DNA from: a virus
Reading direction: 5' to 3' (one strand)
DNA length: 64,000 nucleotides
IMG/VR virus record: IMGVR_UViG_3300027850_000003
Coordinates: 1 to 64,000 of that record
In this document: piece by piece, positions 5,931 to 58,998 of the stretch
Numbering within the stretch: the stretch's first letter is position 1
Layout of the letters: every line of letters begins with the position of its first letter
Program-made: the position numbers and the translations under genes
Notes under the pieces: generated by a model
Databases searched by the model: none
The model's input: the letters and a program-made list of their open reading frames with translations, nothing else
Told to the model about the DNA's origin: nothing

Positions 5931-6485
5931 TTATTCTTTTTTTACTCTTAGTTGAATATCTTCTAAGCTTAGCTCTTCTTCTTGAGTATATAAAGCTTCT
6001 AAATACTCCCACATATACAAAATAGTAAAATTATCCTCCATCTTATCTCTTAAGAGTTCAGAAAATAAAGGAAACTCTTTCTTATATATTTTATATAACT
6101 TAGGATTATCGTCTAAGCTACACTCTGTATTAACTATCCTATCTACCAATTTAACCATCAGAGCTTTTCTATTAGTCTTAATTTTCTCAGCAGTTTTCTT
6201 TAGACTTTCTACTCTATTCTTAGCTGGAGTATTAGTGACTGCATAAACTATATCTGCTACTTCTTTACCGAATTGAATCCTTAATGTCTCATGGCTAACC
6301 CAACAATCTTCTATTGAGTCATGTAACCAAGCAGATGCTAATATAACTTCATCTTTTACTTTAAATAAACCTTTAAGAGTAGAATAGACATCTCTTAAGT
6401 GAGAAATATAAGGTAGTTCTCCATACTTTTGATTTCTGTGAACTATACTGGCAAATTCCTTAGCTCTAGCAATTAAGTCTGACAT
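5931..6485 (-). CDS. HD-domain (p)ppGpp hydrolase-like protein (MESH1/SpoT-type)
   Basis: 184 residues, the size of single-domain small alarmone hydrolases. Metal-binding pattern: H16 in FASIVHRNQKYG, H29 in PYISHL, H55-D56 with E59-D60 in LHDSIED, and D115 in LVDRIVN. In this family these residues coordinate Mn2+ for removal of the 3'-pyrophosphate of (p)ppGpp. The later motif is usually K-x-x-D-R-x-x-N and here reads VKLVDRIVN, a reasonable match. A phage alarmone hydrolase could keep host metabolism active during infection (inference). Stop/start overlaps the methylase gene by 1 nt. Confidence 0.8.
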   Translation of the reverse strand: MSDLIARAKEFASIVHRNQKYGELPYISHLRDVYSTLKGLFKVKDEVILASAWLHDSIEDCWVSHETLRIQFGKEVADIVYAVTNTPAKNRVESLKKTAEKIKTNRKALMVKLVDRIVNTECSLDDNPKLYKIYKKEFPLFSELLRDKMEDNFTILYMWEYLEALYTQEEELSLEDIQLRVKKE

Positions 6486-46079: not shown

Positions 46080-46547
46080 CTATCCTAAGTCTCCACTAGG
46101 AAAACGTACAGGACAACCTTCTATTTCTCTCCAATATATATGATCCTCATAGCTTCCTTTTTCTTTTTCCTCAGAGATGTTACTCATTCTTTTTCTGTAA
46201 TTTTCGATCGCATCAATTAACTCTTTCTCCGCCTCAATAGCTATCCCCAAAGCAGCTAAATTTAAGTCACAAATACCAAATTCTCCTAGTTTGTACCAAG
46301 TAAATTTTTCAGAGAGAGGAGTAGTGTTTAAGTACCAAGAGTCTAATCTAGCTTCTACTTCATCATTTTGAAAGATAAGAGTAACGTCACCAAAATACTC
46401 TGCACCAACTCGTAACCCTTTAAATTCTCCTACATTAGGTAAAGTTCTTAGTTGAGTAGTGAATCGAAAAGTATTTAAAGCATCTACGTTAGCTTCCCAA
46501 ACAGAGTAGTAGTCAGTTGATTGGATATTATTGATGGTAATAGGCAT
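46080..46547 (-). CDS. Hypothetical protein, 155 aa
   Basis: Not recognised. Beta-rich first half (ITINNIQSTDYYSVWEANVD, NTFRFTTQLRTLPNVGEF), helical middle (LAALGIAIEAEKELIDAIEN), aromatic end. First of a long series of orphan genes separated by structured RNA elements. Confidence 0.5.
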   Translation of the reverse strand: MPITINNIQSTDYYSVWEANVDALNTFRFTTQLRTLPNVGEFKGLRVGAEYFGDVTLIFQNDEVEARLDSWYLNTTPLSEKFTWYKLGEFGICDLNLAALGIAIEAEKELIDAIENYRKRMSNISEEKEKGSYEDHIYWREIEGCPVRFPSGDLG

Positions 46548-46582
46548 GATTTTCTCCTTTTATTAGAGCTGAGGAAAGTTAA

Positions 46583-46615
46583 ATCCCCTACAGAATAGAA
46601 AAAACTATAGGGGAT
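46583..46615. terminator. Strong 8-bp hairpin between 46547 and 46637 genes
   Basis: ATCCCCTA / TAGGGGAT with a 17-nt loop, 21 nt after the stop of the 46637 gene on the minus strand. The T run is weak, so it may be a terminator or mRNA-stabilising element. Confidence 0.5.
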
Positions 46616-46636
46616 AGATGGCAATGATGTGTTCCT

Positions 46637-46984
46637 TTAGAGGACTGTTAATCCTTCTCTGGAAAGCCGGACACAACTATTTCTGTACTCCTGCAAATTA
46701 ACTGCTGGGAGAGGAAAGAAACCATCATCACCTTTTTTCATCGCTACCACCAACGGAAACCGCCCAGTCAAACCGTGTATAACAGTTACTACCAATACTG
46801 ATAGCGGAGCTAACCCCGGCGACACTATAGTTACATCTTCGCTTCCATCTCCCACTATAGGGGACAAATAGACTATGAGATTTGCCAGAAGATCCGGATC
46901 TTCCAATCTAACATGGAATTGGTGATTGACGTAACCCTCAGCTTCCAATACTGCATTAGGATGAGAAAAATTGATCTTGATCAT
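46637..46984 (-). CDS. Hypothetical protein, 115 aa
   Basis: Not recognised. Beta-rich and hydrophobic, less AT-rich than most genes here (GSEDVTIVSPGLAPLSVLVV, VIHGLTGRFPLVVAMKKGDD). No signal peptide. Its leader carries the tRNA-like element at 47027-47069. Confidence 0.5.
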   Translation of the reverse strand: MIKINFSHPNAVLEAEGYVNHQFHVRLEDPDLLANLIVYLSPIVGDGSEDVTIVSPGLAPLSVLVVTVIHGLTGRFPLVVAMKKGDDGFFPLPAVNLQEYRNSCVRLSREGLTVL

Positions 46985-47026
46985 GAGTTTATAGAATCCC
47001 TATTGGTAAAGATTTATAGGGGAAAA

Positions 47027-47069
47027 GCCTAAGAGGGAGTCGAACCCTCATCAGAGCAACCTGCTAGGC
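47027..47069 (-). ncRNA. tRNA-like element T1 (T-arm plus closing stem)
   Basis: Minus strand: GCCTAG - CAGGTTGCTCTGAT - GAGGG TTCGACT CCCTC - TTAGGC. The closing stem is 6 bp (one G-T) and the 7-nt loop has the T54, C56, A58 pattern of a tRNA T-loop. No room for an anticodon arm; a 3-bp D-arm-like hairpin with GG can form in the 14-nt middle. It begins 8 nt after a stop codon. Confidence 0.5.
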
Positions 47070-47077
47070 ATTAACCT

Positions 47078-47491
47078 TTAGAGCCCGTGGGCAAACTCTA
47101 AATATTGCTTTTCGATATCGCAAATATTCCCATTGACTACTTCTTTAACAAGGTCAACATTAACCTCCTCCCACGTCAAATCTTTCGACAATTGTACAAC
47201 GACTGGACGAGGGTTAGACATTATCTCCTGCCCTACTTCTGTTAGCGCTACAAAAGTGTTTTCGACAATAGCAAAGTGATAATCTACAATCTGCGAAGAA
47301 AGCTGTATATACTCCATTTCAGCACCTGAGATGTTCCCTTTGGCACACTCTAATTCGAGATCAACTTCAACTTCTGAGGAAATAAAGTCTTTTGAAAGTT
47401 TTAAGACGATTGGGCGAGGGGATTTCATAACTTCGACACCAAACCGAGAGTTTGCTACTAAGTCGTTGTCTAAGATTTTAAAGTGACGCAT
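47078..47491 (-). CDS. Hypothetical protein with internal tandem duplication, 137 aa
   Basis: Two halves match: VEVMKSPRPIVLKLSKDF with VEVDLELECAKGNISGAEMEYI (about 19-65) and QEIMSNPRPVVVQLSKDL with VNVDLVKEVVNGNICDIEKQYL (about 88-135). Each is a P-R-P-(I/V)-V strand-helix unit. Function unknown; the duplication suggests a repeat-type binding protein. Confidence 0.6.
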   Translation of the reverse strand: MRHFKILDNDLVANSRFGVEVMKSPRPIVLKLSKDFISSEVEVDLELECAKGNISGAEMEYIQLSSQIVDYHFAIVENTFVALTEVGQEIMSNPRPVVVQLSKDLTWEEVNVDLVKEVVNGNICDIEKQYLEFAHGL

Positions 47492-47544
47492 TTTCTTTAT
47501 CTTTCTAGTGTTAGATTACTACTGATTGCAGTAAAAACTAGAAT

Positions 47545-47594
47545 GCTCTAACTAAGACTTTCACTTAGTTGTAAGATATAAGAACCTATAGAGC
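47545..47594 (-). ncRNA. tRNA-like three-way junction T2
   Basis: Minus strand: GCTCTA - TAGG TTCTTATAT CTTA - CAA - CTAAG TGAAAGT CTTAG - T - TAGAGC. A 6-bp closing stem, a 4-bp D-arm-like hairpin (one G-T pair) and a 5-bp T-arm-like hairpin. Same plan as T8, T10 and T11 with different stem sequences. Confidence 0.6.
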
Positions 47595-47619
47595 GATTAG
47601 AATTAGGCGTTAAGTGTGA

Positions 47620-47991
47620 TTAATACCAGAGATTGTAATAGAACGACGCGTCTATACCAGCCTTCTCTGGATCGAAGTCAATATCTTGCCACTCCAACGC
47701 AGCGATACTAGGATGAACGAGCCACCAAACCCCATCAATTATCTCTCCGTAGCTACAGGTGCTTTCGACATAAAATTCTTTCCAATCTTCTTGTTCGATT
47801 AAGTTCTTGGCGAAGGATATCTTCTCGGAACTTTCTTCCGATCTCAGTAAATGTAATGCTTGCTCGGTAGCAATCAATTCTCGTTCTTTACTAAATACAA
47901 AATCCATTATTTTCTCCTGCGTTTTTTTACTAGCATCGTCAGTGATAAAGTAGTAATCTTTACCAGACACCTCCTTTAGGTGTTTCAGCAA
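47620..47991 (-). CDS. Hypothetical protein, 123 aa
   Basis: Not recognised. Helical first half (EKIMDFVFSKERELIATEQA, LHLLRSEESSEKISFAKNLI), aromatic second half (IIDGVWWLVHPSIAALEWQD). Part of the 46-58 kb orphan operon. Confidence 0.5.
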   Translation of the reverse strand: MLKHLKEVSGKDYYFITDDASKKTQEKIMDFVFSKERELIATEQALHLLRSEESSEKISFAKNLIEQEDWKEFYVESTCSYGEIIDGVWWLVHPSIAALEWQDIDFDPEKAGIDASFYYNLWY

Positions 47992-48084
47992 TTATTAGTA
48001 CAGCGATCTACAAGCCCTTTTAATGTTCTCGCTGATAGTGAGCAATGTAGTCAAATTTAGAGGTTGTAAAGCTGGTGAGATTGT

Positions 48085-48267
48085 TTATCCTAGCACGTTA
48101 GAGTCGATTATTAACTCACGGGTTATCAATTTGAATTGTCGCCGTCCAGTACGGGAGGCATCACGCTTTACCCAACACATTGTACGCGATTTTTTGGTTG
48201 ATATTTTAGCGTCTGAGATGCTGTAGTTACGTCCGTTTAATAATTTGTGATAGTTCCCCTTCATCAT
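48085..48267 (-). CDS. Hypothetical basic protein, 60 aa
   Basis: Start taken at ATG 48265-48267 because AAGGAG lies 9 nt upstream; a longer frame to 48330 would run into the tRNA-like element T3. Basic (MMKGNYHKLLNGRNYSISDA, KISTKKSRTMCWVKRDASRT, GRRQFKLITRELIIDSNVLG); could bind nucleic acid. Confidence 0.55.
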   Translation of the reverse strand: MMKGNYHKLLNGRNYSISDAKISTKKSRTMCWVKRDASRTGRRQFKLITRELIIDSNVLG

Positions 48268-48319
48268 AGTTAGTCTCCTTTGAAGTAGATAATCCCTTAA
48301 CTGAGTTGTTAAGAGGAAG

Positions 48320-48370
48320 AGTCTAGCCAAGAATCGAACTTGGTTGTTAAATTACCATTAACTCTAGACT
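48320..48370 (-). ncRNA. tRNA-like three-way junction T3
   Basis: Minus strand: AGTCTAG - A - GTTAA TGGTAAT TTAAC - AA - CCAAG TTCGATT CTTGG - CTAGACT. The 7-bp closing stem is perfect, the D-arm-like hairpin has 5 bp and a GG-containing loop, and the T-arm matches a canonical tRNA T-arm. Only the anticodon arm is missing. The best single example in the window. Confidence 0.65.
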
Positions 48371-48381
48371 TATGAGATAGA

Positions 48382-48579
48382 TTAAGTAGTCATGTTTGTG
48401 CTAATTTTGCCTAACTTAAATTTTACATGAAGATAGAATCCATCATCAAAATGTCCAATGCAGAAAATATTAGACCCAAAATACATAGTGGTTTGTACTT
48501 CAGAATCGCAGTAAACTCCTAGTCTTAATTTGTCAACGCAAAAATGGAAAGAACCGTCATTTTTTACAGTGAGTTTCAT
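48382..48579 (-). CDS. Hypothetical beta-rich protein, 65 aa, paralogue of 55985-56191
   Basis: MKLTVKNDGSFHFCVDKLRL and YCDSEVQTTMYFGSNIFCIG align with MTLIVTANGSIDLFSDALNV and MYTDDGRFNVYYKSNFVDVG of the 55985 gene. Small all-beta protein; function unknown. Leader hairpin F is 23 nt upstream. Confidence 0.55.
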   Translation of the reverse strand: MKLTVKNDGSFHFCVDKLRLGVYCDSEVQTTMYFGSNIFCIGHFDDGFYLHVKFKLGKISTNMTT

Positions 48580-48601
48580 TGTGACTCCTAAGTGGTAGAT
48601 A

Positions 48602-48624
48602 ACTAGGTTAGTTACTTCCCTAGT
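48602..48624 (-). promoter_or_regulatory. Leader hairpin of the 11-nt-loop family (copy F)
   Basis: Minus strand: ACTAGG - GAAGTAACTAA - CCTAGT, 6-bp stem, 23 nt upstream of the ATG at 48579 with TTAGGAG between. Confidence 0.6.
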
Positions 48625-48664
48625 ATTTCTTATCTCAACTAATTGATGCGGGGATAACCTCTTT

Positions 48665-48994
48665 TCATGTATTAGATAATGGTTTATACCTTAATTCAAA
48701 CCTTTGGACAGCCTCAAATAAAGGGATGTTAAACCTGCTATCACTATTCCATCCTGCTACAACCTGATTATTTCTGATATAGATATTAAACGATTGAAAT
48801 GTATCAGGAAGCGAACCAAAATTTAAGCAAAGAGGGAGAATTTCTAATGCTTTTTTAGTAGGTTTTGTCAGACTCCCAGTATCTATCAAGCTTTTAATCA
48901 GTTTAATTCTTTCGATAGAGAAAACTTGAAATCCAGTGTCAATCAGAGCAGGAAATAATTGCGCGTGAAGTCCAGTGAGTTTTTGAGTAGACAT
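48665..48994 (-). CDS. Hypothetical protein, 109 aa
   Basis: Start taken at ATG 48992-48994 with AAGGAG 7 nt upstream. A longer in-frame start at 49037-49039 would add MTLNYSVHLPLRRII from the conserved leader block. Helical/aromatic (LHAQLFPALIDTGFQVFSIE, FNIYIRNNQVVAGWNSDSRF). Not recognised. Confidence 0.55.
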   Translation of the reverse strand: MSTQKLTGLHAQLFPALIDTGFQVFSIERIKLIKSLIDTGSLTKPTKKALEILPLCLNFGSLPDTFQSFNIYIRNNQVVAGWNSDSRFNIPLFEAVQRFELRYKPLSNT

Positions 48995-49023
48995 GATAAT
49001 TCTCCTTAGTGGTAAATGAACAG

Positions 49024-49046
49024 AATAGTTTAACGTCATTGCGGAC
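49024..49046 (-). promoter_or_regulatory. Conserved leader sequence with possible MTLNY leader peptide (copy 2)
   Basis: Differs from 36504-36526 at one of 23 positions. Here the ATG inside the block is in frame with the 48665-48994 gene, so it could add 15 residues or act as an upstream start. Both copies are about 30-45 nt before the AAGGAG- or TAGGAG-led start. Confidence 0.5.
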
Positions 49047-49075
49047 TAAATATTCTCGAAGCAAGGCTCTACGAG

Positions 49076-49465
49076 CTAAATCTCTCTTATCTCAACTAAT
49101 TGATATGGAGATAAGCCTTCCTCAGTTAGCCAGTCTCCGTTCAACTGTTTCTCTGCACAATCTAACGCAGAAGAGAGCGAGTCGAACTCCTCATCTTCCA
49201 CATAATATTTCTGCACTCCCACAAAGGAATGTTCTAAATAGACTACATATTCTCCGGCTCTCCTTAGACTTAAATTTGCATTTAAGACCAACTCAAAAAT
49301 CTTGTCTAAGTCGTCATCTTCCCAAAACTCTTGGTTAGTTGTTAACTGAAAATCAAACCAGTTACTGTTATCTTTAACTTCCACTTTGACGATATGTGGG
49401 GAGTTAAGCAAGTCTATTTCTAAACAAGCCACTATTTCTGGAATTATTTCTGAGTAGTTTAACAC
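49076..49465 (-). CDS. Hypothetical acidic protein, 129 aa
   Basis: Not recognised. Acidic, alternating beta and helical segments (VEVKDNSNWFDFQLTTNQEF, GEYVVYLEHSFVGVQKYYVE, SLSSALDCAEKQLNGDWLTE). Ribosome site is poor. Confidence 0.5.
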   Translation of the reverse strand: MLNYSEIIPEIVACLEIDLLNSPHIVKVEVKDNSNWFDFQLTTNQEFWEDDDLDKIFELVLNANLSLRRAGEYVVYLEHSFVGVQKYYVEDEEFDSLSSALDCAEKQLNGDWLTEEGLSPYQLVEIREI

Positions 49466-49504
49466 GTACAGAAGAAGTCATAGTGAATAAGAATTTATGA
49501 CTAA

Positions 49505-49575
49505 ACACTCTCTAGGGATTGCACCTAGTAACTGAGAAGAAATTATCCTCTAGCAGTTAGCTGATTTTAGAGTGT
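49505..49575 (-). ncRNA. tRNA-like element T4, nearly full cloverleaf
   Basis: Minus strand: closing stem ACACTCT / AGAGTGT (7 bp, perfect), a weak D-arm region, a 5-bp hairpin AGAGG ATAATTT CTTCT in the anticodon-arm position, and T-arm CTAGG TGCAATC CCTAG. Length 71 nt is tRNA-like. Against a working tRNA: no GG in the D region, G instead of T at position 55 and T at 37. Probably a relic or a non-tRNA structure. Confidence 0.5.
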
Positions 49576-49580
49576 GAATA

Positions 49581-49630
49581 AATACTCACTAAGACTTGCA
49601 CTTAGTTGATAGCTTAGAACTAAGAGGTAA
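49581..49630 (-). ncRNA. tRNA-like element T5 (T-arm and D-arm-like hairpins)
   Basis: T-arm-like CTAAG TGCAAGT CTTAG (49589-49605) and a CTTAGTTCTAAG hairpin (49613-49624). A closing stem is not evident. It directly precedes T4 on the minus-strand transcript. Confidence 0.35.
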
Positions 49631-49634
49631 ATTA

Positions 49635-49991
49635 TTAGCTTTTTTTTGCTTTTGCTACTTTTTCATCTAGAGAATCTAAGAAACGTTCTTTTTCTTCATC
49701 TGTCATGAGATAATATAAAGTGTCTCGAATTACTTTGTTTTCTTCATTTCTTATTTTTTGTCTTTCTAAGCCTTCAACAATTCTTACTTCCTTGATTCTT
49801 TGATTAACTAGATTCTTTATTTCTTCCTCCTCATTGCAAATTGACCTCATAGTATTAGGCATATTTTCATAAGAAACTAGACTATAAGATGCCATTTTCA
49901 CTGCTAATGAACTATCTACTTCCCTCATCACTAATGTAAAAGCACTCACCAGTTCTGAATCAGTAGCCACAGAGATGTAGTTGTAAGACAT
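49635..49991 (-). CDS. Hypothetical helical protein, 118 aa
   Basis: Not recognised. Helical and charged (VSAFTLVMREVDSSLAVKMA, IKNLVNQRIKEVRIVEGLER, YLMTDEEKERFLDSLDEKVA). The end is basic. No membrane segment. Confidence 0.5.
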   Translation of the reverse strand: MSYNYISVATDSELVSAFTLVMREVDSSLAVKMASYSLVSYENMPNTMRSICNEEEEIKNLVNQRIKEVRIVEGLERQKIRNEENKVIRDTLYYLMTDEEKERFLDSLDEKVAKAKKS

Positions 49992-50054
49992 TTGAGTTTT
50001 CCTTTCACTAAGTAAGTAATTAGCCAGTTTTAAGACATAGCTAAGTCATAAGAG

Positions 50055-50645
50055 TTAATCAATAACTTCGATAAACTCTACATTAAATTTTGTCATATTC
50101 TCAAGAAACTTCTCTTGTAAATAAGGAAGTCTTGCCTCTAACCAGATTTTAAGCTCATCAACCTCTAATTTAAGAATAGTTTCTAATGAGTCCACATCAA
50201 AACTTAAGTCTAGTAAAGTATTGCTACAGAAGTATGACCTGTATTCTTCTTTTTCCGTATCACTGTGTTGCTTAGGTTCTGAGTTCTTAAAAACTCGATA
50301 CTCATTCCGATAGCACTCATAGAAATGCATAGTATTAGCTATGTAGTGCATAGGAGTTCCATCTTGACCGCATCCATGAAAAGGTATCAATGCTTTGAGT
50401 TCAGGTTTTCTTTCAACTATTAAGTCATGAATACATCCACAAGAGTCTTCTACCCATCTCTCTTTATCGTTTTCTCTTCGATAAGTTTCCCCAGTAATAT
50501 AAAAATATGGGTTAGAGTTCCCATAGATATAGTGCATCCCAAATTCAGCTGTTCCTTTATACTGAAAATAATCATCATCTTCCCAAGTACCTAAGTCTAT
50601 TAGCTGTTTAGTTTCAATACTCTTTGTTCTTTTTGTAGTGACCAT
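50055..50645 (-). CDS. Hypothetical protein, 196 aa
   Basis: Not recognised. Beta-rich with aromatic and His/Cys residues (YIYGNSNPYFYITGETYRRE, SCGCIHDLIVERKPELKALI, MHYIANTMHFYECYRNEYRV). The CGC-H and H-Y-E-C stretch may bind metal. C-terminal third helical. Confidence 0.5.
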   Translation of the reverse strand: MVTTKRTKSIETKQLIDLGTWEDDDYFQYKGTAEFGMHYIYGNSNPYFYITGETYRRENDKERWVEDSCGCIHDLIVERKPELKALIPFHGCGQDGTPMHYIANTMHFYECYRNEYRVFKNSEPKQHSDTEKEEYRSYFCSNTLLDLSFDVDSLETILKLEVDELKIWLEARLPYLQEKFLENMTKFNVEFIEVID

Positions 50646-50690
50646 GATAATTCTCCTTAAAATACCTATAAGAGCTAGGGTAAAAACTAA

Positions 50691-50709
50691 CTTAGGAGTT
50701 GCACCTAAG
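50691..50709 (-). ncRNA. T-arm-like hairpin T6
   Basis: Minus strand: CTTAGG TGCAACT CCTAAG, a perfect 6-bp stem and the T54/C56/A58 loop pattern. No closing stem recognised. Lies between the 50756 and 50645 genes. Confidence 0.4.
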
Positions 50710-50755
50710 CTTTCCAGACATATAGCCTAAAAAGAATCTCATTTAGCTGAAGTAA

Positions 50756-51046
50756 CTAAGCTAGTTTTACTAATCTATATAGGAAACTGGCAGCCTCATG
50801 AGTAATAACTTTTTCAAAAATTGAGTCATCTTCTAATTTTTCTAACGGGGATAAGCTATTTTCTACTAAGACATCAATTGATTCAAGAATTTTATTAATA
50901 TAAGCATCTTTAACTAGATTTACTACTATCTCGATAGAAGATTCTGAGTTTAGTAACCGCAATAAATCCTCAAACTCATCCTCAAAATCTTGATTTGAGA
51001 GACTAGAACAAAGCAGAGATAAAGTGATTTGGCGAATATAAGTCAT
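50756..51046 (-). CDS. Hypothetical acidic protein, 96 aa
   Basis: Not recognised. Helical (TLSLLCSSLSNQDFEDEFED, LVKDAYINKILESIDVLVEN). It sits after a possible acetyltransferase remnant. Confidence 0.5.
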   Translation of the reverse strand: MTYIRQITLSLLCSSLSNQDFEDEFEDLLRLLNSESSIEIVVNLVKDAYINKILESIDVLVENSLSPLEKLEDDSIFEKVITHEAASFLYRLVKLA

Positions 51047-51062
51047 AATAATTTTCTCTTTT

Positions 51063-51168
51063 TTAACGATAAACGTATCTTCTGCTATCTTCTTCTTGAA
51101 TGAAACCTAACCTCTCATACAAAGACTTTCTCTTATGTCCGAAACCGTCTGCATTATAGACATAAAAA
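51063..51168 (-). pseudogene. Coding-like fragment, possibly the end of a GNAT-type acetyltransferase
   Basis: A frame without a start codon reads YVYNADGFGHKRKSLYERLG, FIQEEDSRRYVYR and stops at 51063-51065. The LYERLGF pattern is typical of the end of GNAT acetyltransferases. Its 5' end runs into the T run of the terminator at 51163-51201, so only a tail is left. A TATAAT at about 51154 (minus strand) may be a promoter instead. Confidence 0.35.
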
Positions 51169-51201
51169 AATCCCCTACTCCTAATTAAAGGAATAGAGGA
51201 T
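51163..51201 (-). terminator. Strong terminator after the 51229 gene
   Basis: Minus strand: a 13-bp stem (a few G-T pairs) with a 6-nt TTAATT loop, followed by six further T. It lies 27 nt after the stop of the 266-aa gene and is the strongest terminator seen in the window. Confidence 0.8.
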
Positions 51202-51228
51202 AGGAAGATTATGAAAGGTGAGAGAGAG

Positions 51229-52029
51229 TTATGTGCTAGGTTCCTCTGTATCTGTGCTAGTGATATCGACTATCGGAGCATCGACTGCACTCTTACTCTC
51301 AGTTGTAGACTCTTCTGAAATATTTTGGTCTACTGTCTCGGATTCTATTGGTTTCTCCGTTACAGTTTCCGATGGTGGGAGAGCAGGTAAACCCTGATAA
51401 TGACGGGATAAATGCCCCAAATCAGTTTTAACTGCTAAATCAAGCTTATACTGATAGGTTTCTATCACTTCTTCGGTGCTTACTTCTAAGTTAGGAGAAG
51501 CATCACCAGTTCCTTTCTCACCTGAGATAAGGTTTGTGCGGGTTTCCAGATATGATATGTAGAAGAGGATCATCTTCACTAATCCCACTGTATAGCCGTT
51601 TGTTGCAGCGCTAGATGTTAAATGTGTATAGAAAGCATCCCCGAATACCCATTGGGCAAACAAGTCTTCTAATGAGGTAGACTCAAACTCATCATAATTT
51701 GAGTTGATAGGAAGATGGATGCGATCCACCTTATCTATATATGATGGCTCAAACGATAGCTTAACAGTAGCATTAGAGTTAACCTCAAACGTTGCTACGG
51801 TTCTTGGGATTTGATCGACCGCACTCTGATAACTGAATTTTAACAACTTTGATGTTTTGCTGGCAGTCAAAGAAATCTGTAAATATTCAGTCTTGCTATC
51901 TTTTTTTGGCTTGAAGACCTTGAAGACCTTTCCTGTTTTTTTATCTTCTTTCTTTACCATAGTCGCTGGTAGAATCGATAAACGAACGTATTCGATAGAT
52001 TGAATAGATGCGATTTTTTGGTAAGACAT
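51229..52029 (-). CDS. Hypothetical protein with disordered C-terminus, 266 aa
   Basis: N-terminal 190 residues are beta/alpha (LQISLTASKTSKLLKFSYQS, VATFEVNSNATVKLSFEPSY); the last 60 are Ser/Thr/Glu-rich and probably disordered (ETVTEKPIESETVDQNISEE). No family recognised. Higher G+C than most neighbours. Possibly co-expressed with the 972-aa gene upstream. Confidence 0.55.
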   Translation of the reverse strand: MSYQKIASIQSIEYVRLSILPATMVKKEDKKTGKVFKVFKPKKDSKTEYLQISLTASKTSKLLKFSYQSAVDQIPRTVATFEVNSNATVKLSFEPSYIDKVDRIHLPINSNYDEFESTSLEDLFAQWVFGDAFYTHLTSSAATNGYTVGLVKMILFYISYLETRTNLISGEKGTGDASPNLEVSTEEVIETYQYKLDLAVKTDLGHLSRHYQGLPALPPSETVTEKPIESETVDQNISEESTTESKSAVDAPIVDITSTDTEEPST

Positions 52030-52076
52030 AATTAGTATCCTTTGTTGATGGTTGACGGTTTACAATCCTGATATTA

Positions 52077-52113
52077 CTTAGTAGTTAGGTAGATCGTTAG
52101 ATCCGTTACTAAG
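52077..52113. promoter_or_regulatory. Intergenic hairpin between 51229 and 52162 genes
   Basis: CTTAGTA / TACTAAG, a 7-bp stem with a 23-nt loop that can form an inner GATC/GATC pairing. It lies in the leader of the 51229 gene. Confidence 0.4.
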
Positions 52114-52161
52114 CTATTAGGAATGGCTAGGATAATTTACCAGAATACCCCAGCCTATGAA

Positions 52162-55080
52162 TTAGCAGTGATTCAAAGCGTATTCTAACGCCTCTAGATG
52201 GTTAGTTAGGTTTTGGCTTATTGACTCTCTCCAGCTAGGTATGACTGTATCAAGTTTATGCTCTAGAGTGTCAATTGATAGCTGTAACAAACTCTCTATT
52301 CCCACGTTAGGCTGATAACTTTGGAAGATATCTATTAGCTGAATCTTGACTCGATAGTTCCAAGTCTGAGCTGAAGTATCTAATAAACTCCACGGTGTTA
52401 GAAGTACACCATCTGAAGTTCTAAAACCTATCTTGAGATTAGATAAAATATGTAGCTCATCAATGAATGCCCCCCAAACTATTTGCGAGTGATGTCCTCT
52501 AGTTTTGTAGTGAATACTAGCCAGTAGATCCCCAGGGTTTTTACAACTGAGAACTACTCCAGCTAACTCTAACTCTGCCTCTGATTTTGCCCATACTTTC
52601 CAGTTTTTGATCATTGCATCGAATAAAATCTGATTATCGTGTTGATCGTAAACCTCAAGAGTTAAGAGATTGACCAATTTTCCTATATTTACCTCCGAGT
52701 TTGAAGTATAAGGAATTGTGAACTTTTTAAACTCTTTTAGAACTTGTGGCAACCCTTTTGAGTTACCCGTGAACCCTAATAGATCCTTAGTAGACACTGT
52801 TTGAGTCGTTTTGTTTTCTCTCTCTCTTGAGAATAGTCGAACATTATTGTTGATAAACTTTTGACAAATAGCGTTTAGATCGCTTTGTGTTTTTTGAAGT
52901 AGATCAAAGTCTTTTCTCTCATTAGTACACTTAAGGAATGACTGCAAGTTATCCAGAGAAAAACCTAGAGATGATGAGACTTTGACTGGTATCTTACCTT
53001 GCCGTTCCTTATCTCCTATAGGTTTAGTGATTGAGATTAATTGGCGTGTTTGAATATCTCCGTTGAGATATATTTCAACTACTAGCCGTTTGTCAGTCCT
53101 AACAATCATCTCTGACTCGGAGTTAGTAAATGATTTGTCTACTTTCTCACCTTCCTTTAACCTCTTTTTGTAGAATGGGTATACAGACATTAGATGCGCT
53201 TTAATCTCATCATTAGTAGGATAATCTTCCTTAAAGTGCTTTGAGAGTATTTGTGGGATACGTCTCAACCAATTTATCACTAAAGGAATACTAGATCGCC
53301 GAGTAACTCTCTCATCCCCTAAGACTGTCATCGAATAGGTGGGCTTCTCAGTTTCTACTGTCTCAACTATCTTGATGTTGCCGAGTACATGGTATCGGTA
53401 GTAATTATCAGAGTAGCTAGATTCATGCTTTATGTAGTTCTCATTAAGCACAGATCGTATTGATTGTGTTGCTCCTAGAACATCTGTTTTATCAGGTTTT
53501 ATTCCTGATTTGATGTTAGACGTTAGTTGGTCTAATTGAGAGATGATTAGATTGACATTAGTATTAGTGTTTTTTAACTGCACTAATTCAGTTATCTGCT
53601 TAGCTATATGCTCTAACAAATCCCTAGATGGGAGTTTATCAGAAAGATAAATGGTTAAGTCTAATGGATTAGTCCTTATTGGCAGTGCGATTAGTTGCCA
53701 TTGTTGATTAGACTTCTGTACTGTTAAGATACATGGGACGTTTCCTAAGATTGTTCTTAACTGCAATTCGTGATTGTTAGTCCGGGAACCATCGATCTTG
53801 ACTGGTTTAGGTTCTACTCTCTCTGTGATTGTGGCAGGTTTGGGGGGTGATGCGGGTAAATTAGGATGATCAAAACCTTTAAACCATACCGGGGAAACTA
53901 GAAATTTTTCTTGTACTTTGTTTGCAGAAGATACATCCACTTTCTGATTTACACTATCAAGGTATCTCAGAGACTTTGAGGTTTCCCAATGATTAGAATC
54001 TTTATCCATTGGGGATAGGTGTTCTAGACCTATTTTCCACACAGAGAGATCCGGGAATATTTCAGGATCAGAAACTATTGGGTGTAAGTTATGCTCGTTA
54101 GAATCTTTGTTGAAATATGCTAAATGTCTACTCTCCGGGTCAAAGTATGCTATTTTACTCATCCCCTGCACCCACCTACTATCCACTTTCTTGAGATAGG
54201 TTTGGCACAAAAAAGTTTTTTCTTTCTCCTGCACTTTGATAATAGACGGCTCTAATAATGATGCATAGATAGGAGCCGACTCTCTCCCATTTCTTTCTAT
54301 TATCGAACCTTTGCGGTTTTTGATTTCTGCGATTTTCTGTGAGCGATGCACTACTTTTCTCAAATTGCCATCTTGATTGACTTCATAACTTACCGCCGGA
54401 TAGCAGTAAAGAGTCACGGCGTTATATTTTCCGGTTTCTAACTCCCTAATAAAATCTGACTTTTGCCCGGTGGCAGACAGTAAAGCGTTAAGGAATGGCT
54501 CGATGTCCTCATACTTTAAGATTGTTGGGATCTTGACGATCCTGTTTTCTGAATCTTTTTGCCCCATGAAGATAGGGATAGAAAGAGCTAAGTCTTCATC
54601 ATCATCATCATCAGAATTACCAGTTACTGGATCTGAAATCGTTGATTGCTCGACTATCTCAGGTGGATCAATAGGTTCCGAGTCAAAATCATCACTATCA
54701 CCATCATCATCTGAGAATAAATCACTAATCAGTCCGGAGGATACTTTTTCAGTAAACGGGGCAACAGGTGTAGTCTGATTAACCTCTGCTACTTTTTGCG
54801 GTTCATTTATACCTCCGAATAGACCAGTCTCAACACTAAACTCAACATCAACCTCAGCACCATAAATTTGTAATAGCTTTACGTCAGGCAATCTCCCTAA
54901 CGCAGTTCTTAGCTCAGAAATTTTAATCACTCTGCAAGTATCAAAAACTCTTAAAGCTTGACGATCCCATTCATAAACAACACTCTCAATCGTGAAGGTG
55001 AGTAATAGAGGATACTCCGTAAATGCAGATTTCAGAAGATTAAAACCTTCAATCTTATCTTTGATTTTGGGATTGTACAT
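52162..55080 (-). CDS. Large protein of unknown function, 972 aa
   Basis: The largest unrecognised gene. An N-terminal domain of about 100 residues, then acidic low-complexity linkers (SDLFSDDDGDSDDFDSEP, DPVTGNSDDDDDEDLALSI), a middle region with AEIKNRKGSIIERNG, a Pro-rich linker near 400 (ASPPKPATITERVEPKPVK), and two long alpha/beta regions (about 430-560 and 570-950). No Walker, polymerase or protease motif was found. In size and position it might be a tail, structural or internal protein, but this is a guess. Base composition is less AT-rich than neighbours. Confidence 0.6.
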   Translation of the reverse strand: MYNPKIKDKIEGFNLLKSAFTEYPLLLTFTIESVVYEWDRQALRVFDTCRVIKISELRTALGRLPDVKLLQIYGAEVDVEFSVETGLFGGINEPQKVAEVNQTTPVAPFTEKVSSGLISDLFSDDDGDSDDFDSEPIDPPEIVEQSTISDPVTGNSDDDDDEDLALSIPIFMGQKDSENRIVKIPTILKYEDIEPFLNALLSATGQKSDFIRELETGKYNAVTLYCYPAVSYEVNQDGNLRKVVHRSQKIAEIKNRKGSIIERNGRESAPIYASLLEPSIIKVQEKEKTFLCQTYLKKVDSRWVQGMSKIAYFDPESRHLAYFNKDSNEHNLHPIVSDPEIFPDLSVWKIGLEHLSPMDKDSNHWETSKSLRYLDSVNQKVDVSSANKVQEKFLVSPVWFKGFDHPNLPASPPKPATITERVEPKPVKIDGSRTNNHELQLRTILGNVPCILTVQKSNQQWQLIALPIRTNPLDLTIYLSDKLPSRDLLEHIAKQITELVQLKNTNTNVNLIISQLDQLTSNIKSGIKPDKTDVLGATQSIRSVLNENYIKHESSYSDNYYRYHVLGNIKIVETVETEKPTYSMTVLGDERVTRRSSIPLVINWLRRIPQILSKHFKEDYPTNDEIKAHLMSVYPFYKKRLKEGEKVDKSFTNSESEMIVRTDKRLVVEIYLNGDIQTRQLISITKPIGDKERQGKIPVKVSSSLGFSLDNLQSFLKCTNERKDFDLLQKTQSDLNAICQKFINNNVRLFSRERENKTTQTVSTKDLLGFTGNSKGLPQVLKEFKKFTIPYTSNSEVNIGKLVNLLTLEVYDQHDNQILFDAMIKNWKVWAKSEAELELAGVVLSCKNPGDLLASIHYKTRGHHSQIVWGAFIDELHILSNLKIGFRTSDGVLLTPWSLLDTSAQTWNYRVKIQLIDIFQSYQPNVGIESLLQLSIDTLEHKLDTVIPSWRESISQNLTNHLEALEYALNHC

Positions 55081-55109
55081 TTTTCTCCGATGCCTTAGTA
55101 ACAGGCTAT

Positions 55110-55164
55110 GGCTAACTAGGGAATTGCACCTTAGTGATGGGCTTTATTTATTTACCTAATAGCC
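55110..55164 (-). ncRNA. tRNA-like element T7
   Basis: Minus strand: GGCTA ... TAGCC closes 45 nt containing ACTAAGG TGCAATT CCCTAGT, a T-arm-like hairpin with one A-C mismatch. The middle is AT-rich without a clear second hairpin. It lies just after the stop of the 55171 gene, in the leader of the 972-aa gene. Confidence 0.4.
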
Positions 55165-55170
55165 GTTAGA

Positions 55171-55494
55171 CTACAAGCCTTTGATTTGTTCTAAGTAGAT
55201 CGAAAAATCATCCTGTTGTGCTTTGTTTTTCTCTATTAGCTCTTTCAAAGATGCTAGAAGACCATCAATAAAATTACACCTTTCAGAGATAGGGAGCAGG
55301 TCTCCGTTATCCACCAGCCACGGTAAATTTACTATACCGTCATCAGCTTTATAGTATATTCCAACTTTCCCATCGTACTCTAATAAAAAATCTCCCTCTA
55401 AGCTATCTCGTATGTAACTCTCGACTTCTGTGTAAAGGATCTTTTCGATGACTAAATCAACTAATTTCTCAAACTGATTTTTGGTTAGTGACAT
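55171..55494 (-). CDS. Hypothetical acidic protein, 107 aa
   Basis: Not recognised. Helical ends (LTKNQFEKLVDLVIEKILYT, GLLASLKELIEKNKAQQDDF) with a beta-rich centre (DFLLEYDGKVGIYYKADDGI). First gene after element T7. Confidence 0.5.
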   Translation of the reverse strand: MSLTKNQFEKLVDLVIEKILYTEVESYIRDSLEGDFLLEYDGKVGIYYKADDGIVNLPWLVDNGDLLPISERCNFIDGLLASLKELIEKNKAQQDDFSIYLEQIKGL

Positions 55495-55595
55495 GATTTT
55501 CTTTATCTTTCTAACGTGTTTTCTCAGTCAGTATAGATCACTTTTTAAGTAACCTATATTTGATGAGATGTCCTTAGTTACCTCGGACGATTGAG

Positions 55596-55883
55596 TTATG
55601 GGAATAGTCTATTTGACTCTGCAATTAAAGAGATAAGCTCAACAGTTTCAAATGTCCTTTGAGATTTTTCACTTCCTAGTGAGATATAATTGAAATCTCT
55701 GTCACATATCAAATCTAAATACTGAATAGAATTAGCACGTATTCCGACTTTACTCATTGTTACTATCTGATAAGCGTTCCCATTGGTGAAGTGTTCAGTG
55801 AATGTCACAACGTCCCAATCGCGGAATAAATCAGGTGCATCTTTAACTGTGGAAGCTACTGTGTACTGTGTTTGAGTAGTCAT
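55596..55883 (-). CDS. Hypothetical protein, 95 aa, paralogue of 56800-57393
   Basis: Begins MTTQTQYTVASTVKDAPDLF and contains YLDLICDRDFNYISL; the 56800 gene begins MTTQTQPTVASTVKGDVPEL and contains FTDLICDRDFNYLSA. So the two are a recent duplicate pair, this one ending earlier. Leader hairpin at 55904-55923 and element T8 lie upstream. Function unknown. Confidence 0.6.
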   Translation of the reverse strand: MTTQTQYTVASTVKDAPDLFRDWDVVTFTEHFTNGNAYQIVTMSKVGIRANSIQYLDLICDRDFNYISLGSEKSQRTFETVELISLIAESNRLFP

Positions 55884-55903
55884 TGTGTATCCTTTGTGTA
55901 AAA

Positions 55904-55923
55904 GTCACCCGGAATTAGGTAAC
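55904..55923 (-). promoter_or_regulatory. CCGG leader hairpin (copy 1)
   Basis: Minus strand: GTTAC - CTAATTCCGG - GTGAC, a 5-bp stem (one G-T), 20 nt before the ATG at 55883. Same sequence plan at 57410-57429 and 57898-57917, each time just downstream of a T-arm-like element. Confidence 0.55.
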
Positions 55924-55926
55924 AAA

Positions 55927-55976
55927 GCTCTAATCAAGACTTTCACTTGATAGTAAGATATAAGAACCTATAGAGC
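55927..55976 (-). ncRNA. tRNA-like three-way junction T8
   Basis: Minus strand: GCTCTA - TAGG TTCTTATAT CTTA - CT - ATCAAG TGAAAGT CTTGAT - TAGAGC. Compared with T2, T-arm bases differ on both sides of the stem yet pairing is kept. Confidence 0.6.
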
Positions 55977-55984
55977 AGTTAGAC

Positions 55985-56191
55985 TTAGTAATTTTCCGTT
56001 TCTACGGTAATCTTGAATCCCACTACCTTTAGATACATTTTGAAGTGCGATTTCTCAACACCTTTACCTCCTACATCTACAAAATTACTCTTATAGTAGA
56101 CGTTGAACCGCCCATCATCAGTGTACATTCCCACATTCAGTGCATCAGAAAACAAGTCGATAGAACCGTTAGCAGTTACGATTAATGTCAT
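55985..56191 (-). CDS. Hypothetical beta-rich protein, 68 aa, paralogue of 48382-48579
   Basis: Start taken at ATG 56189-56191, the position that aligns with the start of the 48382 paralogue; a GTG at 56228-56230 would overlap element T9. Reads MTLIVTANGSIDLFSDALNV, then GMYTDDGRFNVYYKSNFVDV. Function unknown. Confidence 0.55.
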   Translation of the reverse strand: MTLIVTANGSIDLFSDALNVGMYTDDGRFNVYYKSNFVDVGGKGVEKSHFKMYLKVVGFKITVETENY

Positions 56192-56229
56192 GGTCTTAGC
56201 AGCTAGTCGGTAAAGAATTACTAGCAACA

Positions 56230-56290
56230 CTCTTTCTAGGAGTCGAACCTAGATCAAGCTAACCCGATTATTTAATCGTATAGCAAAGAG
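56230..56290 (-). ncRNA. tRNA-like element T9
   Basis: Minus strand: CTCTTT - GCTATACGATTAAATAATCG - GGTTAGC TTGAT - CTAGG TTCGACT CCTAG - AAAGAG. A 6-bp closing stem, a long single arm (GCTA / TAGC around CGATT / AATCG) and a canonical-looking T-arm. It fills the gap between two small genes. Confidence 0.55.
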
Positions 56291-56296
56291 AAGAAA

Positions 56297-56695
56297 TTAG
56301 ATGCGGGGATAATTTTGTATATCCGTCTCGCAGAACTCTAGGTATTCTACACTATTTAGCTCCACCTGCTCGTTGTAAGCAGCGTTTGTATCCGAGATAT
56401 GCTCAGGTTGTTTAGTAACAGGTTTTACTAATTTAGCTTTGGGATTGCGTGTGCGTTGTGTCGCTAGGTTTCCCCAGCTTACTACCTCAAAGTTTGGTTC
56501 GATCCAGTTCCCCCAGTCACTTTTATTAGTAGAGCCAATTGGAAAGTGAGCCGGACTTTGACTCGCCCACAGTTTAGCTTGACCTATTGCCTTTACCTCC
56601 GACAGGAAGAAGCTAACAGTGATCCCGCCTGGATTAGGTACACTCCAGAACTCATTAAGATTGACAGAAGTGTTAATTGTGTTAGTGGTAATCAT
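56297..56695 (-). CDS. Hypothetical protein, 132 aa
   Basis: Not recognised. Beta-rich with many Trp (NEFWSVPNPGGITVSFFLSE, AKLWASQSPAHFPIGSTNKS, DWGNWIEPNFEVVSWGNLAT). Ends with an acidic stretch. Part of the orphan operon. Confidence 0.5.
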   Translation of the reverse strand: MITTNTINTSVNLNEFWSVPNPGGITVSFFLSEVKAIGQAKLWASQSPAHFPIGSTNKSDWGNWIEPNFEVVSWGNLATQRTRNPKAKLVKPVTKQPEHISDTNAAYNEQVELNSVEYLEFCETDIQNYPRI

Positions 56696-56743
56696 GGTAC
56701 AAGATAAGCTACATGGAATAAGAAATTTCTCATATAGCTAATT

Positions 56744-56791
56744 CCCCAAATAAGACTTTCACTTAAAAGACAGATATAAGAACTGTTAGGG
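56744..56791 (-). ncRNA. tRNA-like three-way junction T10
   Basis: Minus strand: CCCTAA - CAG TTCTTATAT CTG - TCTTT - TAAG TGAAAGT CTTA - TTTGGGG region. The closing stem is CCCTAA / TTGGGG with one T-G pair; both the closing stem and the D-arm-like stem differ from T2, T8 and T11 but still pair, and the TTCTTATAT and TGAAAGT loops are identical. Confidence 0.55.
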
Positions 56792-56799
56792 CGGTTGAG

Positions 56800-57393
56800 T
56801 TAGATGATAAAACAGAACACGTTACGGATGAACTCAACACTTTTCATTTTCTCTCCGTCAATTTTCCCGTAGTGGAATAAAGCAGAACATAACCTATCAT
56901 CAATTTCACCTACACTTCCTCTGAACGCTCCTAGTATTCGCCAAAAGCAGATACTTACTACACAATCATCATCACATTGAATGTGGATTATAGCATCTGA
57001 TATTGGGTGCAAACCTTCTGCACGGAATACCAAGTTACCTAGTGAATATTGCAAGATTTTGGCTGATGAGTCTAAGACTTGTTCCTTCAAGGATTGACTT
57101 TTGATCGTACCCGTAGCTGACAAGGTTTTTACCTCATAATCCAGTTCCCGTTGCCTGATGCTTTCTAGTGCGTTATCTGATGCTGAGAGATAATTGAAAT
57201 CTCTGTCACATATTAAGTCAGTAAAGTGATTAGAGCTGGCGCTCAGTTCATTTTTACTCGTCACTACTATCTGGTAGATACCTCCGTAATTAGCAACATA
57301 TTCAGTCGATGTTACAACGTGCCAACTCGAAAATAGCTCAGGTACGTCACCTTTAACTGTAGAAGCTACTGTAGGCTGTGTTTGAGTAGTCAT
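56800..57393 (-). CDS. Hypothetical protein, 197 aa, paralogue of 55596-55883
   Basis: Start taken at ATG 57391-57393 (MTTQTQPTVASTV), matching the paralogue and preceded by CGGAGAAAG; a GTG 21 nt upstream falls in the leader hairpin. N-terminal 85 residues match the paralogue; the remaining part (LQYSLGNLVFRAEGLHPISD, AIIHIQCDDDCVVSICFWRI) is unique. Function unknown. Confidence 0.6.
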   Translation of the reverse strand: MTTQTQPTVASTVKGDVPELFSSWHVVTSTEYVANYGGIYQIVVTSKNELSASSNHFTDLICDRDFNYLSASDNALESIRQRELDYEVKTLSATGTIKSQSLKEQVLDSSAKILQYSLGNLVFRAEGLHPISDAIIHIQCDDDCVVSICFWRILGAFRGSVGEIDDRLCSALFHYGKIDGEKMKSVEFIRNVFCFII

Positions 57394-57409
57394 GTGCTTT
57401 CTCCGATAA

Positions 57410-57429
57410 GTCACCCGGTATTAGGTAAC
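57410..57429 (-). promoter_or_regulatory. CCGG leader hairpin (copy 2)
   Basis: Minus strand: GTTAC - CTAATACCGG - GTGAC, 16 nt before the ATG at 57393. Confidence 0.55.
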
Positions 57430-57432
57430 GAT

Positions 57433-57483
57433 GCTCTAGTTAAGATTTTCACTTAACAGTTAGGATATAAGAACCTATAGAGC
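57433..57483 (-). ncRNA. tRNA-like three-way junction T11
   Basis: Minus strand: GCTCTA - TAGG TTCTTATAT CCTA - ACT - GTTAAG TGAAAAT CTTAAC - TAGAGC. All three stems are perfect Watson-Crick; relative to T8 the G-T pair of the D-arm-like stem has become G-C. Confidence 0.6.
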
Positions 57484-57490
57484 GGTTGAG

Positions 57491-57868
57491 TTAATCCTTT
57501 AGACGATCCATGATGTCATCTTTTGTCATCCAAGCTTGATACATTGAGTCTAACTTAGAATGAATTCGGCAACCTGTACTGATAAACTCTTCCCCGTCCT
57601 CATCAAGGTGAGACTGGAATGAGAAACCGCACGATGATTTAAAAATGCAATGTACCAGTTCCCCGACGATGTAGGGAGTGCCAACTACTTTTAACTGCCA
57701 CCGGATCGAGTTTGGATTACCGAGATAGTCAAGAGTCTCAAACTGAAAACCCGCATCGACTAAGTTGTGCTCAATCTTTAGTGCCTGTGAGACTTGGGTT
57801 AACAGTTCAGCAACCTCTGGGTTAGAAGAGAGATACTGTTGGCAGAATGCAGTTTGTGTAATAGCCAT
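57491..57868 (-). CDS. Hypothetical protein, 125 aa
   Basis: Not recognised. Helical N-terminus (AFCQQYLSSNPEVAELLTQV), beta middle (WQLKVVGTPYIVGELVHCIF), and a Cys-containing acidic end. First gene of the 46-58 kb minus-strand block, so its leader in the gene-free region may carry the main promoter. Confidence 0.5.
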   Translation of the reverse strand: MAITQTAFCQQYLSSNPEVAELLTQVSQALKIEHNLVDAGFQFETLDYLGNPNSIRWQLKVVGTPYIVGELVHCIFKSSCGFSFQSHLDEDGEEFISTGCRIHSKLDSMYQAWMTKDDIMDRLKD

Positions 57869-57897
57869 TTGATTTTCTCCGTTTGTTGTGTGTAAAA

Positions 57898-57917
57898 GTC
57901 ACCCGGTAGTGAGTGAC
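57898..57917 (-). promoter_or_regulatory. CCGG leader hairpin (copy 3)
   Basis: Minus strand: GTCAC - TCACTACCGG - GTGAC; compared with copies 1 and 2 the stem gains a perfect C-G in place of T-G. 29 nt before the ATG at 57868. Confidence 0.55.
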
Positions 57918-57927
57918 AAAGCTCATA

Positions 57928-57944
57928 GAAGGAATCGAACCTTC
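57928..57944 (-). ncRNA. T-arm-like hairpin T12
   Basis: Minus strand: GAAGG TTCGATT CCTTC, identical in form to a tRNA T-arm. No matching acceptor strand was found for the flanking TATGAGC. About 20 nt upstream is a TCTC / GAGA hairpin with a 7-nt loop, possibly a decayed anticodon arm. Confidence 0.45.
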
Positions 57945-58998
57945 TTCTCTTGATTTGAGATTGTCCCGCACACGATCGAGTAACTCCTAAGAGATTTTAG
58001 ACCGTGATTAGTAGGTGACTTATTTTCCCGGGCGGGCTAGATAACTATTATAGTAAGAACTTTTTAGCTCCTACCTAGCAACCTAGATCCGCGGGGATGA
58101 TTTGAGGTACGCAGGTAACTTAGCGATCTCTTATCTTTGATATCTCCTCCTGGTAACTTAGGAAGTGTGTTTCTTAACTCTTATAATCTATCTTTTATCT
58201 CTTAGAGTGTCAAGTCTTTTTAAACTTTTCTCTTATAAGATTTTCTGATGGACTAAAGGTTAGAAGTTCCTTTTAGGCTTATGAAAGCTTTAAAGGTTTG
58301 GCGCGGTTAGAGTGCTGTGTGTGTCCTCCCCGTTTCCATGTATTTAAGATAACAAGTCTTTAGGGATGTGTCAAGCCCTTAAGCGTGTTACTTTCAAACT
58401 ACTTTTCCACTACACGTCTCGGTATCTCTTAAGACTTCTAAGGTGGTCTATAGGGATATAGATAGATAGTACATTTAACGCTCCAGCATCGGTTGAGCAG
58501 GAAGATAGAGCCATCTGGTAGCATTCTGGTAAGGATTAATAGGGATAATATAAGCAATCCCATGTAGTAGTCTGATAATGGACTAGGGTTCCACTACTAA
58601 ATAGGGATAGGGCTTAGGTCTAGCTGAGATGGTAGCAGTCTATGGGAGTACAGGTATAGTAGACGCTCTCGAACCATTACACAGTCTATGGTCTAGGTTC
58701 ACAATCAATCGAACACCTATATATAAGGATCATAGGGTAGCAGATAGTTATCAGATGTCAAGTTAAAATATCTTATAGGTATAATGGATGGAATAGGGAA
58801 TGGTTATATGGAGGTATGTATATGATATATAAGTGAGAGTATACAATGTATAAGAGGCATATTTTGGGGATTTGTGAGTTATTACCCCCTTAACCCTATA
58901 ACAACTAAACCAAACCTAATAACAAATAACCACATTAAATATTAGTTTAAAATACCAAGTAGAATAAGAATAGAGAACATTAATAGTAGATATACAAT

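Follow-up and report, generated by a model that had tools for sequence, protein, structure and literature searches.

The punctuation of long transcripts by transfer RNAs (tRNAs), which are processed by RNase P and RNase Z (ELAC2), is characteristic of mitochondria. The cut made by RNase Z falls directly 3' of the discriminator base (N73), a C at this place suppresses the cleavage, and archaeal RNase Zs also process pre-tRNAs that lack the D, T or anticodon arm (PMC7479834). RNase P measures the stack of acceptor stem and T-arm (PMC4919913) and cuts phage RNAs and polycistronic mRNAs (PMC11143913). The following paragraphs concentrate on twelve tRNA-like elements (E1-E12) in one operon of a virus, encoded on the minus strand of a window of 64,000 nucleotides (nt), the first 64 kb of the 129,969-base IMG/VR virus record IMGVR_UViG_3300027850_000003. 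These elements probably constitute an anticodon-deficient tRNA-like family that marks the places at which a long polycistronic phage mRNA is cut, with the host RNase Z, perhaps together with RNase P, as the predicted enzyme.

All twelve elements are T-arm hairpins with G53, T54, A58 and C61, located between 47.0 and 58.0 kb. They correspond to T1-T12 of a sequence-only reading of the same DNA, which had described twelve T-arm-like hairpins with constant T54 and A58. These hairpins are real: a strict T-arm (a T-stem of 5 base pairs (bp) with G53, T54, A58 and C61) occurs 11 times on the minus strand of positions 46500-58400, compared with 0.5 +/- 0.7 expected and at most 3 in 200 dinucleotide shuffles. 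The set of twelve consists of these 11 strict matches minus one chance match, plus E7 and E10, each of which is one pair short. The operon (46080..57868, minus strand) comprises 19 genes, mostly of no known function, as defined by open reading frame (ORF) calls that also set the gene starts; the start of the gene at 48665-49039 possibly lies further downstream. An element occupies 10/18 of the operon's junctions, and the intergenic share of the operon is 16.6%. The earlier placement of all hairpins in gene junctions is right in that every element lies outside genes; 11 of the 12 are found between genes, E12 is part of the leader of the first gene, and E4 and E5 share one junction. Together with 14 elements from three relatives (G001, G002 and G009), 26 elements are available, and the main tests were done on 25 of them. 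The fixed T-arm bases (the G53-C61 pair, T54 and A58) are present in 25/25, though these bases served in selecting the sites.

The most telling features lie 3' of the T-arm and were not used in the selection. Position 74 is defined as the first base past the 7-nt acceptor strand and the discriminator when the elements are aligned by the T-stem. It is T (U in the RNA) in 25/25 elements and likewise in the 26th, so that no element carries C or CCA directly past the discriminator; after other T-arm-like matches, T is found at this place in 40/84 cases. U74 is kept even in elements without a visible acceptor stem, and position 75 is T in 21/25. The same N73-TT ending is shared by the phage's own tRNA-Arg and tRNA-Tyr, the two tRNAs that ARAGORN calls in the whole record, both beyond the window. 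A stem of at least 5 bp begins exactly at position 76, i.e. two bases past N73, in 12/25 elements (0.8 in shuffles, maximum 4 in 300 shuffles), and other offsets yield 0-3. The acceptor starts a median of 7 nt past the stop codon, and the next ATG follows a median of 40 nt past U74. Since U74 is invariant, U75 is frequent and the hairpin is set at position 76, which is where RNase Z cuts a CCA-less pre-tRNA, this enzyme is the parsimonious candidate. Among the sites proposed by the sequence-only reading (for RNase P, RNase Z or a host tRNA-binding enzyme), recognition by tRNA-processing enzymes is thus well supported and narrowed to the 3' side; no comparable RNase P signature was seen on the 5' side, where, by inspection, neither the -1 base nor the 5'-end base of the acceptor is constant.

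In constrained folds, E1, E2, E3, E7, E8, E10 and E11 form a compact three-way junction without an anticodon arm, as does E9, whose D-like arm is long. E4 and E6 consist of the acceptor stem and one odd extra arm, and E5 and E12 show little apart from the T-arm. The compact junctions of 43-51 nt drawn earlier for T1-T3, T8, T10 and T11 are recovered, and E7 and E9 join them with an acceptor stem and a D-like arm; the description "without anticodon arms" holds for seven or eight of the twelve, the remainder merely lacking a canonical anticodon arm. For E7 and E10, the tRNA-like shape is less stable than alternative folds. In most elements, the acceptor strands are flush with the T-stem and both stems together usually measure 11-12 bp, as in tRNA; the total is 11-13 bp in 19/25 elements, and the acceptor stands out only modestly against shuffled upstream sequence (Fisher p = 0.0009). 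The T-loops are of the TTCRA, TGCAA and TGAAA types. A suggestive look at the loops yielded a candidate change in D-loop/T-loop pairing (GG with TTC, UUC with GAA). ARAGORN calls no tRNA in the window or in L047, Rfam reports no tRNA match (RF00005) at E<=5 in three operons (that of the window and those of two relatives), and the elements match no known Rfam family. They are not canonical tRNA genes, i.e. full cloverleaves with an anticodon arm that are detectable by ARAGORN or Rfam.

The relatives were found by different routes. G001 (58,580 bases), retrieved with the TGAAA-class pattern, is syntenic with 46.6-48.0 kb of the window and harbors copies of E1 and E2. A portal search yielded G002 (151,199 bases; portal 83% identical) and G003; G002 encodes a homologue of a 972-amino-acid (aa) protein of the window and carries five elements in the same operon. 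Seven elements are present on G009, a phage contig of 57,005 bases, again in this operon. Related genes shared by the window and G002 are limited to the 972-aa, the 266-aa and a divergent 224-aa gene. As the small genes between the elements are unrelated, the elements are conserved while the neighboring genes turn over. In G001, an insertion interrupts the copy of E1; once joined, its flanks give an element in register with E1 of the window. The insertion (L009 1324-1734, minus strand, about 410 bases) contains a HEARO/IscB omega RNA (RF02033, 142 bits) and not an anticodon arm, and an interrupted or split tRNA was rejected on this basis. Near the end of G001, the sequence reads as an IS607-like recombinase.

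A rule requiring a T-arm and a flush acceptor of at least 11 bp together matches 8 times in the window operon and 3 times elsewhere in the genome, 5 times in the G002 operon and 4/4 in the G009 stretch; six more distant cyanophages contain no clusters of elements under this rule, just tRNAs and scattered chance matches. A model built from the twelve sites alone and run on related phages, a check akin to the covariance model suggested by the sequence-only reading, recovers the family: with 29 positions, it places 12/14 elements of G001, G002 and G009 among its top 13 matches (E 7e-5 to 0.03) and misses those at G002 24372 and 24841. The remaining top match, at G002 105098 (minus strand), is an isolated tRNA-like sequence that lies close to the portal gene and has an anticodon loop of 6 nt; it is nearly identical to one at G003 56701 (minus strand), and ARAGORN calls neither.

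Regarding covariation, MAFFT misplaced the 5' acceptor strand when applied to elements of mixed length, and the T-stems of the whole set are unusable as evidence because pairing helped to select the sites. Within the TGAAA class (five members), 7/16 pairs are changed on both sides while 93.8% of the cells are paired; 0/500 shuffles reach as many double changes, and slid controls give 0-1. E10 alone accounts for compensating changes in two pairs of the D-stem and one of the acceptor, with the D-loop TTCTTATAT constant. E1 differs between the window and G001 at 7/45 bases, including an acceptor change from C-G to A-T; the D-stem seems to provide a further compensation, which depends on the choice between two possible D-stems. 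The elements at G002 24372 and G009 30624 show three differences in 62 bases, all in the T-stem and with pairing intact, namely one compensatory pair and one change from U-G to U-A. These compensatory changes support the stems. That stems differ in sequence yet pair had been noticed before.

The proposed mechanism combines these features into a module with the order stop codon, tRNA-like element, cut at N73|UU, 5'-terminal hairpin, ribosome site and start codon. The record is that of a cyanophage, as concluded from its ribonucleotide reductase, whose nearest relatives are cyanophage enzymes, and its portal, which is nearest to those of the Pseudanabaena phages PA-SR01 and Pam2 (28-29% identity); cyanobacteria possess RNase Z, P, E and J (PMC10989914). 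The host RNase Z would recognize the acceptor/T-arm half and cut between N73 and U74. After this cut, the downstream mRNA would start with 5'-UU and the hairpin, its 5'-monophosphate end being shielded from RNase E or RNase J. Work on ompA of E. coli is said to have shown such protection from RNase E by a 5'-terminal stem-loop. The upstream mRNA would be left with a tRNA-like 3' terminus, to which CCA is perhaps added, and RNase P may cut the 5' side as well. In this way, one transcript would be converted into a separately stable mRNA for each gene. A more far-reaching version, about as likely as not, sees a dedicated modular RNA punctuation device comprising a minimal anticodon-less tRNA mimic, a fixed N73|UU RNase Z site and a cut-dependent 5' stem-loop; repeated at the majority of the operon's junctions, it would make each gene a separately protected mRNA and would be kept across phages whose small genes are wholly replaced.

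Several points weigh against this proposal. The acceptor test is significant yet modest, and a convincing acceptor stem is absent or weak in E5, E12 and two G009 elements. No element is found in 8/18 operon junctions, and the hairpin at position 76 is clear in only about half of the elements. Since some elements are orthologues or paralogues/duplicates, the 25 are not independent, and about 14 look separate. In the study that reported the tolerance of archaeal RNase Zs to missing arms, the Bacillus enzyme showed none (PMC7479834).

The alternatives differ in what they leave unexplained. RNase P as the main enzyme, cutting the 5' end of each element, with the 3' features inherited from tRNA ancestors, would agree with the length of the acceptor/T-arm stacks and with the known substrates of this enzyme, but the apparently variable 5' side, the invariance of U74 even without an acceptor stem and the positioning of the downstream hairpin from the 3' cut site make it rather unlikely. 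It is distinctly unlikely that the elements stay uncut and stabilize or regulate the mRNA by binding a tRNA-binding protein or ligand, e.g. as a tRNA-nuclease decoy or a translational switch: a tRNA-like half is a potential ligand of many host proteins and the RNA ligase encoded by the phage is compatible with a conflict over tRNAs, yet neither the invariant U74 outside the fold nor the second hairpin two bases past the discriminator is accounted for. As to their origin, the earlier suggestion that decayed tRNA genes were reused as punctuation fits, since a few elements of the relatives still come close to a full cloverleaf, with an odd anticodon arm, and tRNA arrays exist elsewhere in phages of this group. 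Neutral decay alone, by which the elements would be functionless leftovers of a tRNA array interrupted by inserted small genes, is very improbable, as the compensatory changes, the fixed bases including U74 in 25/25, the strict junction placement and the position-exact second hairpin are unexpected under neutrality.

Signals acting at the DNA level, such as the promoters borne by intergenic repeats of haloviruses like HF2 (PMC8707807), have next to no likelihood here, as pairing is kept while the sequence varies and promoter-like matches are rarer than chance in the region (19 observed, 35.5 in shuffles), on which ground promoter repeats were rejected. The two best minus-strand matches, sigma-70-like (TTGACA-17-TATCTT and TTGACA-17-TAGATT) and resting on the consensus only, are located at 58374 and 58213 (58185..58374) ahead of the operon. 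With few promoter-like matches and the best two at this place, one long cut transcript fits better than many promoters, and from gene order and these matches at its head we infer that the operon is transcribed as a single unit. Terminators were also rejected, since no consistent T-run was found; the T-arm of E6 happens to match the terminator scan, and a single terminator-like site is present at 51201-51170.

The individual elements, all on the minus strand, are described in order of position, with the hairpin that follows them where one is given. E1 (47025..47069, T-stem 5' base 47049; homologue in G001) combines the acceptor GCCTAG/TTAGGC, a D-like hairpin, the T-arm GAGGG-TTCGACT-CCCTC and N73=T; directly past its U74-U75, the hairpin CCCTAT...ATAGGG (46998..47021) precedes the ATG at 46984. 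E2 (47544..47594, 47568) has a TGAAAGT T-loop and the constant D-loop TTCTTATAT, followed by TCTAGT...ACTAGA (47504..47542). In E3 (48319..48370, 48343; hairpin 48293..48317), an acceptor of 7 bp and a T-stem of 5 bp add up to 12 bp, and the D-loop is TGGTAAT. E4 (49504..49575, 49528), also with 7 + 5 bp, carries a single long non-canonical third arm and is followed by GTCATA...TATGAC (49476..49502). E5 (49581..49605, 49605), in tandem with E4, is reduced to the T-arm, the 3' acceptor strand and N73-UA, with weak acceptor pairing. E6 (50684..50748, 50708) shows the acceptor AGCTAA/TTAGTT, a 6-bp T-stem and a third arm, without a D-arm. E7 (55109..55164, 55133), located 5' of the 972-aa gene at a position also occupied in G002 and G009, has the acceptor GGCTA/TAGCC; past it, the short hairpin GCCT-7 nt-AGGC (55092..55106) starts 2 nt after N73. 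The same spacing is found for all following elements. E8 (55926..55976, 55950), of the TGAAAGT class with a 12-bp coaxial helix, has GTTACC...GGGTGAC (55904..55923) starting exactly at this distance. E9 (56228..56290, 56252) displays the acceptor CTCTTT/AAAGAG, the long D-like arm, the T-loop TTCGACT and the hairpin GCTAGT...ACTAGC (56202..56225). E10 (56742..56791, 56766), again TGAAAGT, with the acceptor CCCTAA/TTGGGG and the weakest fold of its class, is followed by AGCTATATG...CATGTAGCT (56707..56739). E11 (57432..57483, 57456) has the T-loop TGAAAAT, a 12-bp coaxial helix and the hairpin GTTACC...GGGTGAC (57410..57429). E12 in the operon leader (57920..57944, 57944) comprises the T-arm GAAGG-TTCGATT-CCTTC, the 3' acceptor strand and N73, with a doubtful 5' acceptor strand, and the hairpin GTCACTC...GGGTGAC (57898..57917).

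Further features were observed in the operon and its surroundings. A second recurrent junction hairpin with a loop close to GAAGTAACTAA and varying stems (CTAGG.../GTCC.../GAGAG...) occurs in junctions without a tRNA-like element, at about 48640 and 55595 of the window and about 15145 and 14010 of G002 (all minus strand). In the relatives, good conservation is also seen for the leader that separates the 972-aa from the 266-aa gene (window 52050-52160, minus strand; L045 6838-6944; L047 648-753; 76-89% by blastn), which carries the hairpins GGCTGGG...CCTAGCC and CTTAGTA...TACTAAG. The gene at 46637-46984 (minus strand) encodes a 115-aa protein resembling CRISPR-associated Csx15 (NF040560, 32.6 bits, cut-off 35) and 71% identical to a G001 protein, possibly an anti-CRISPR or ring-nuclease-like candidate. 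The phage and G001 also share 1.1 kb at 90% DNA identity, far above the rest (L005 14404-15543; L009 17923-19062), likely a mobile element. The ribonucleotide reductase (15730-19182, minus strand) has 1150 aa and aligns with its phage relatives in two pieces with about 67% coverage, and probably contains an intein or another insertion. Close DNA or protein matches were sought in phages, plasmids and genomes, and none were found. In three cyanophages, an apparent circularly permuted tRNA-like gene was noticed (L056 about 18650-18800, minus strand, PA-SR01; L091 about 6085-6215, plus strand; L071 about 17800-17935, plus strand), with the T-arm and 3' acceptor strand preceding the 5' acceptor strand and D-arm and with complementary closing arms that vary between phages; Rfam gave no tRNA or tmRNA match at the site in two of the three, which were checked.

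If RNase Z cutting at these elements holds true, tRNA punctuation also evolves in bacteria with bacterial enzymes, one transcript can give genes with separate mRNA stabilities, and the elements offer RNase Z (and RNase P) minimal substrates of natural origin. Such RNAs are overlooked by tRNA finders and are possibly common in viral genomes. The principle of tRNA punctuation is already known; an anticodon-less phage version is without earlier description in the open-access literature searched (most subscription papers and preprints lie outside), where we found no tRNA-like elements in phage operons, no RNase Z acting on phage mRNA and no bacterial tRNA punctuation of this kind.

Among the known systems, mitochondria offer the closest likeness, with tRNA-shaped elements between the genes of a long transcript at the cut points. 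In contrast, the phage elements are neither tRNAs nor capable of decoding, may be followed by a set 5' hairpin and would depend on bacterial enzymes, their cleavage being proposed from the sequence. With CCA-less bacterial pre-tRNAs, the substrates of RNase Z, they share, in most cases, an acceptor/T-arm stack, as well as an unpaired N73 and U past the discriminator, and the phage's tRNAs have the same N73-TT trailer, but the elements lack a canonical anticodon arm, are embedded in mRNA and use several T-loop types. The tRNA-like structures cut by RNase P in C4 RNA, M3 RNA, T4 gene 32 mRNA and polycistronic operon mRNAs also reside inside non-tRNA transcripts; those are individual cases, whereas the phage family, marked by a fixed 3' signature, recurs within a single operon at the majority of its junctions. 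Viral mimicry of tRNA is also known from plant viral RNAs, where the structures are 3'-terminal, often pseudoknotted and serve roles at the genome end, unlike the elements of this DNA phage, which are internal and present in many copies per transcript.

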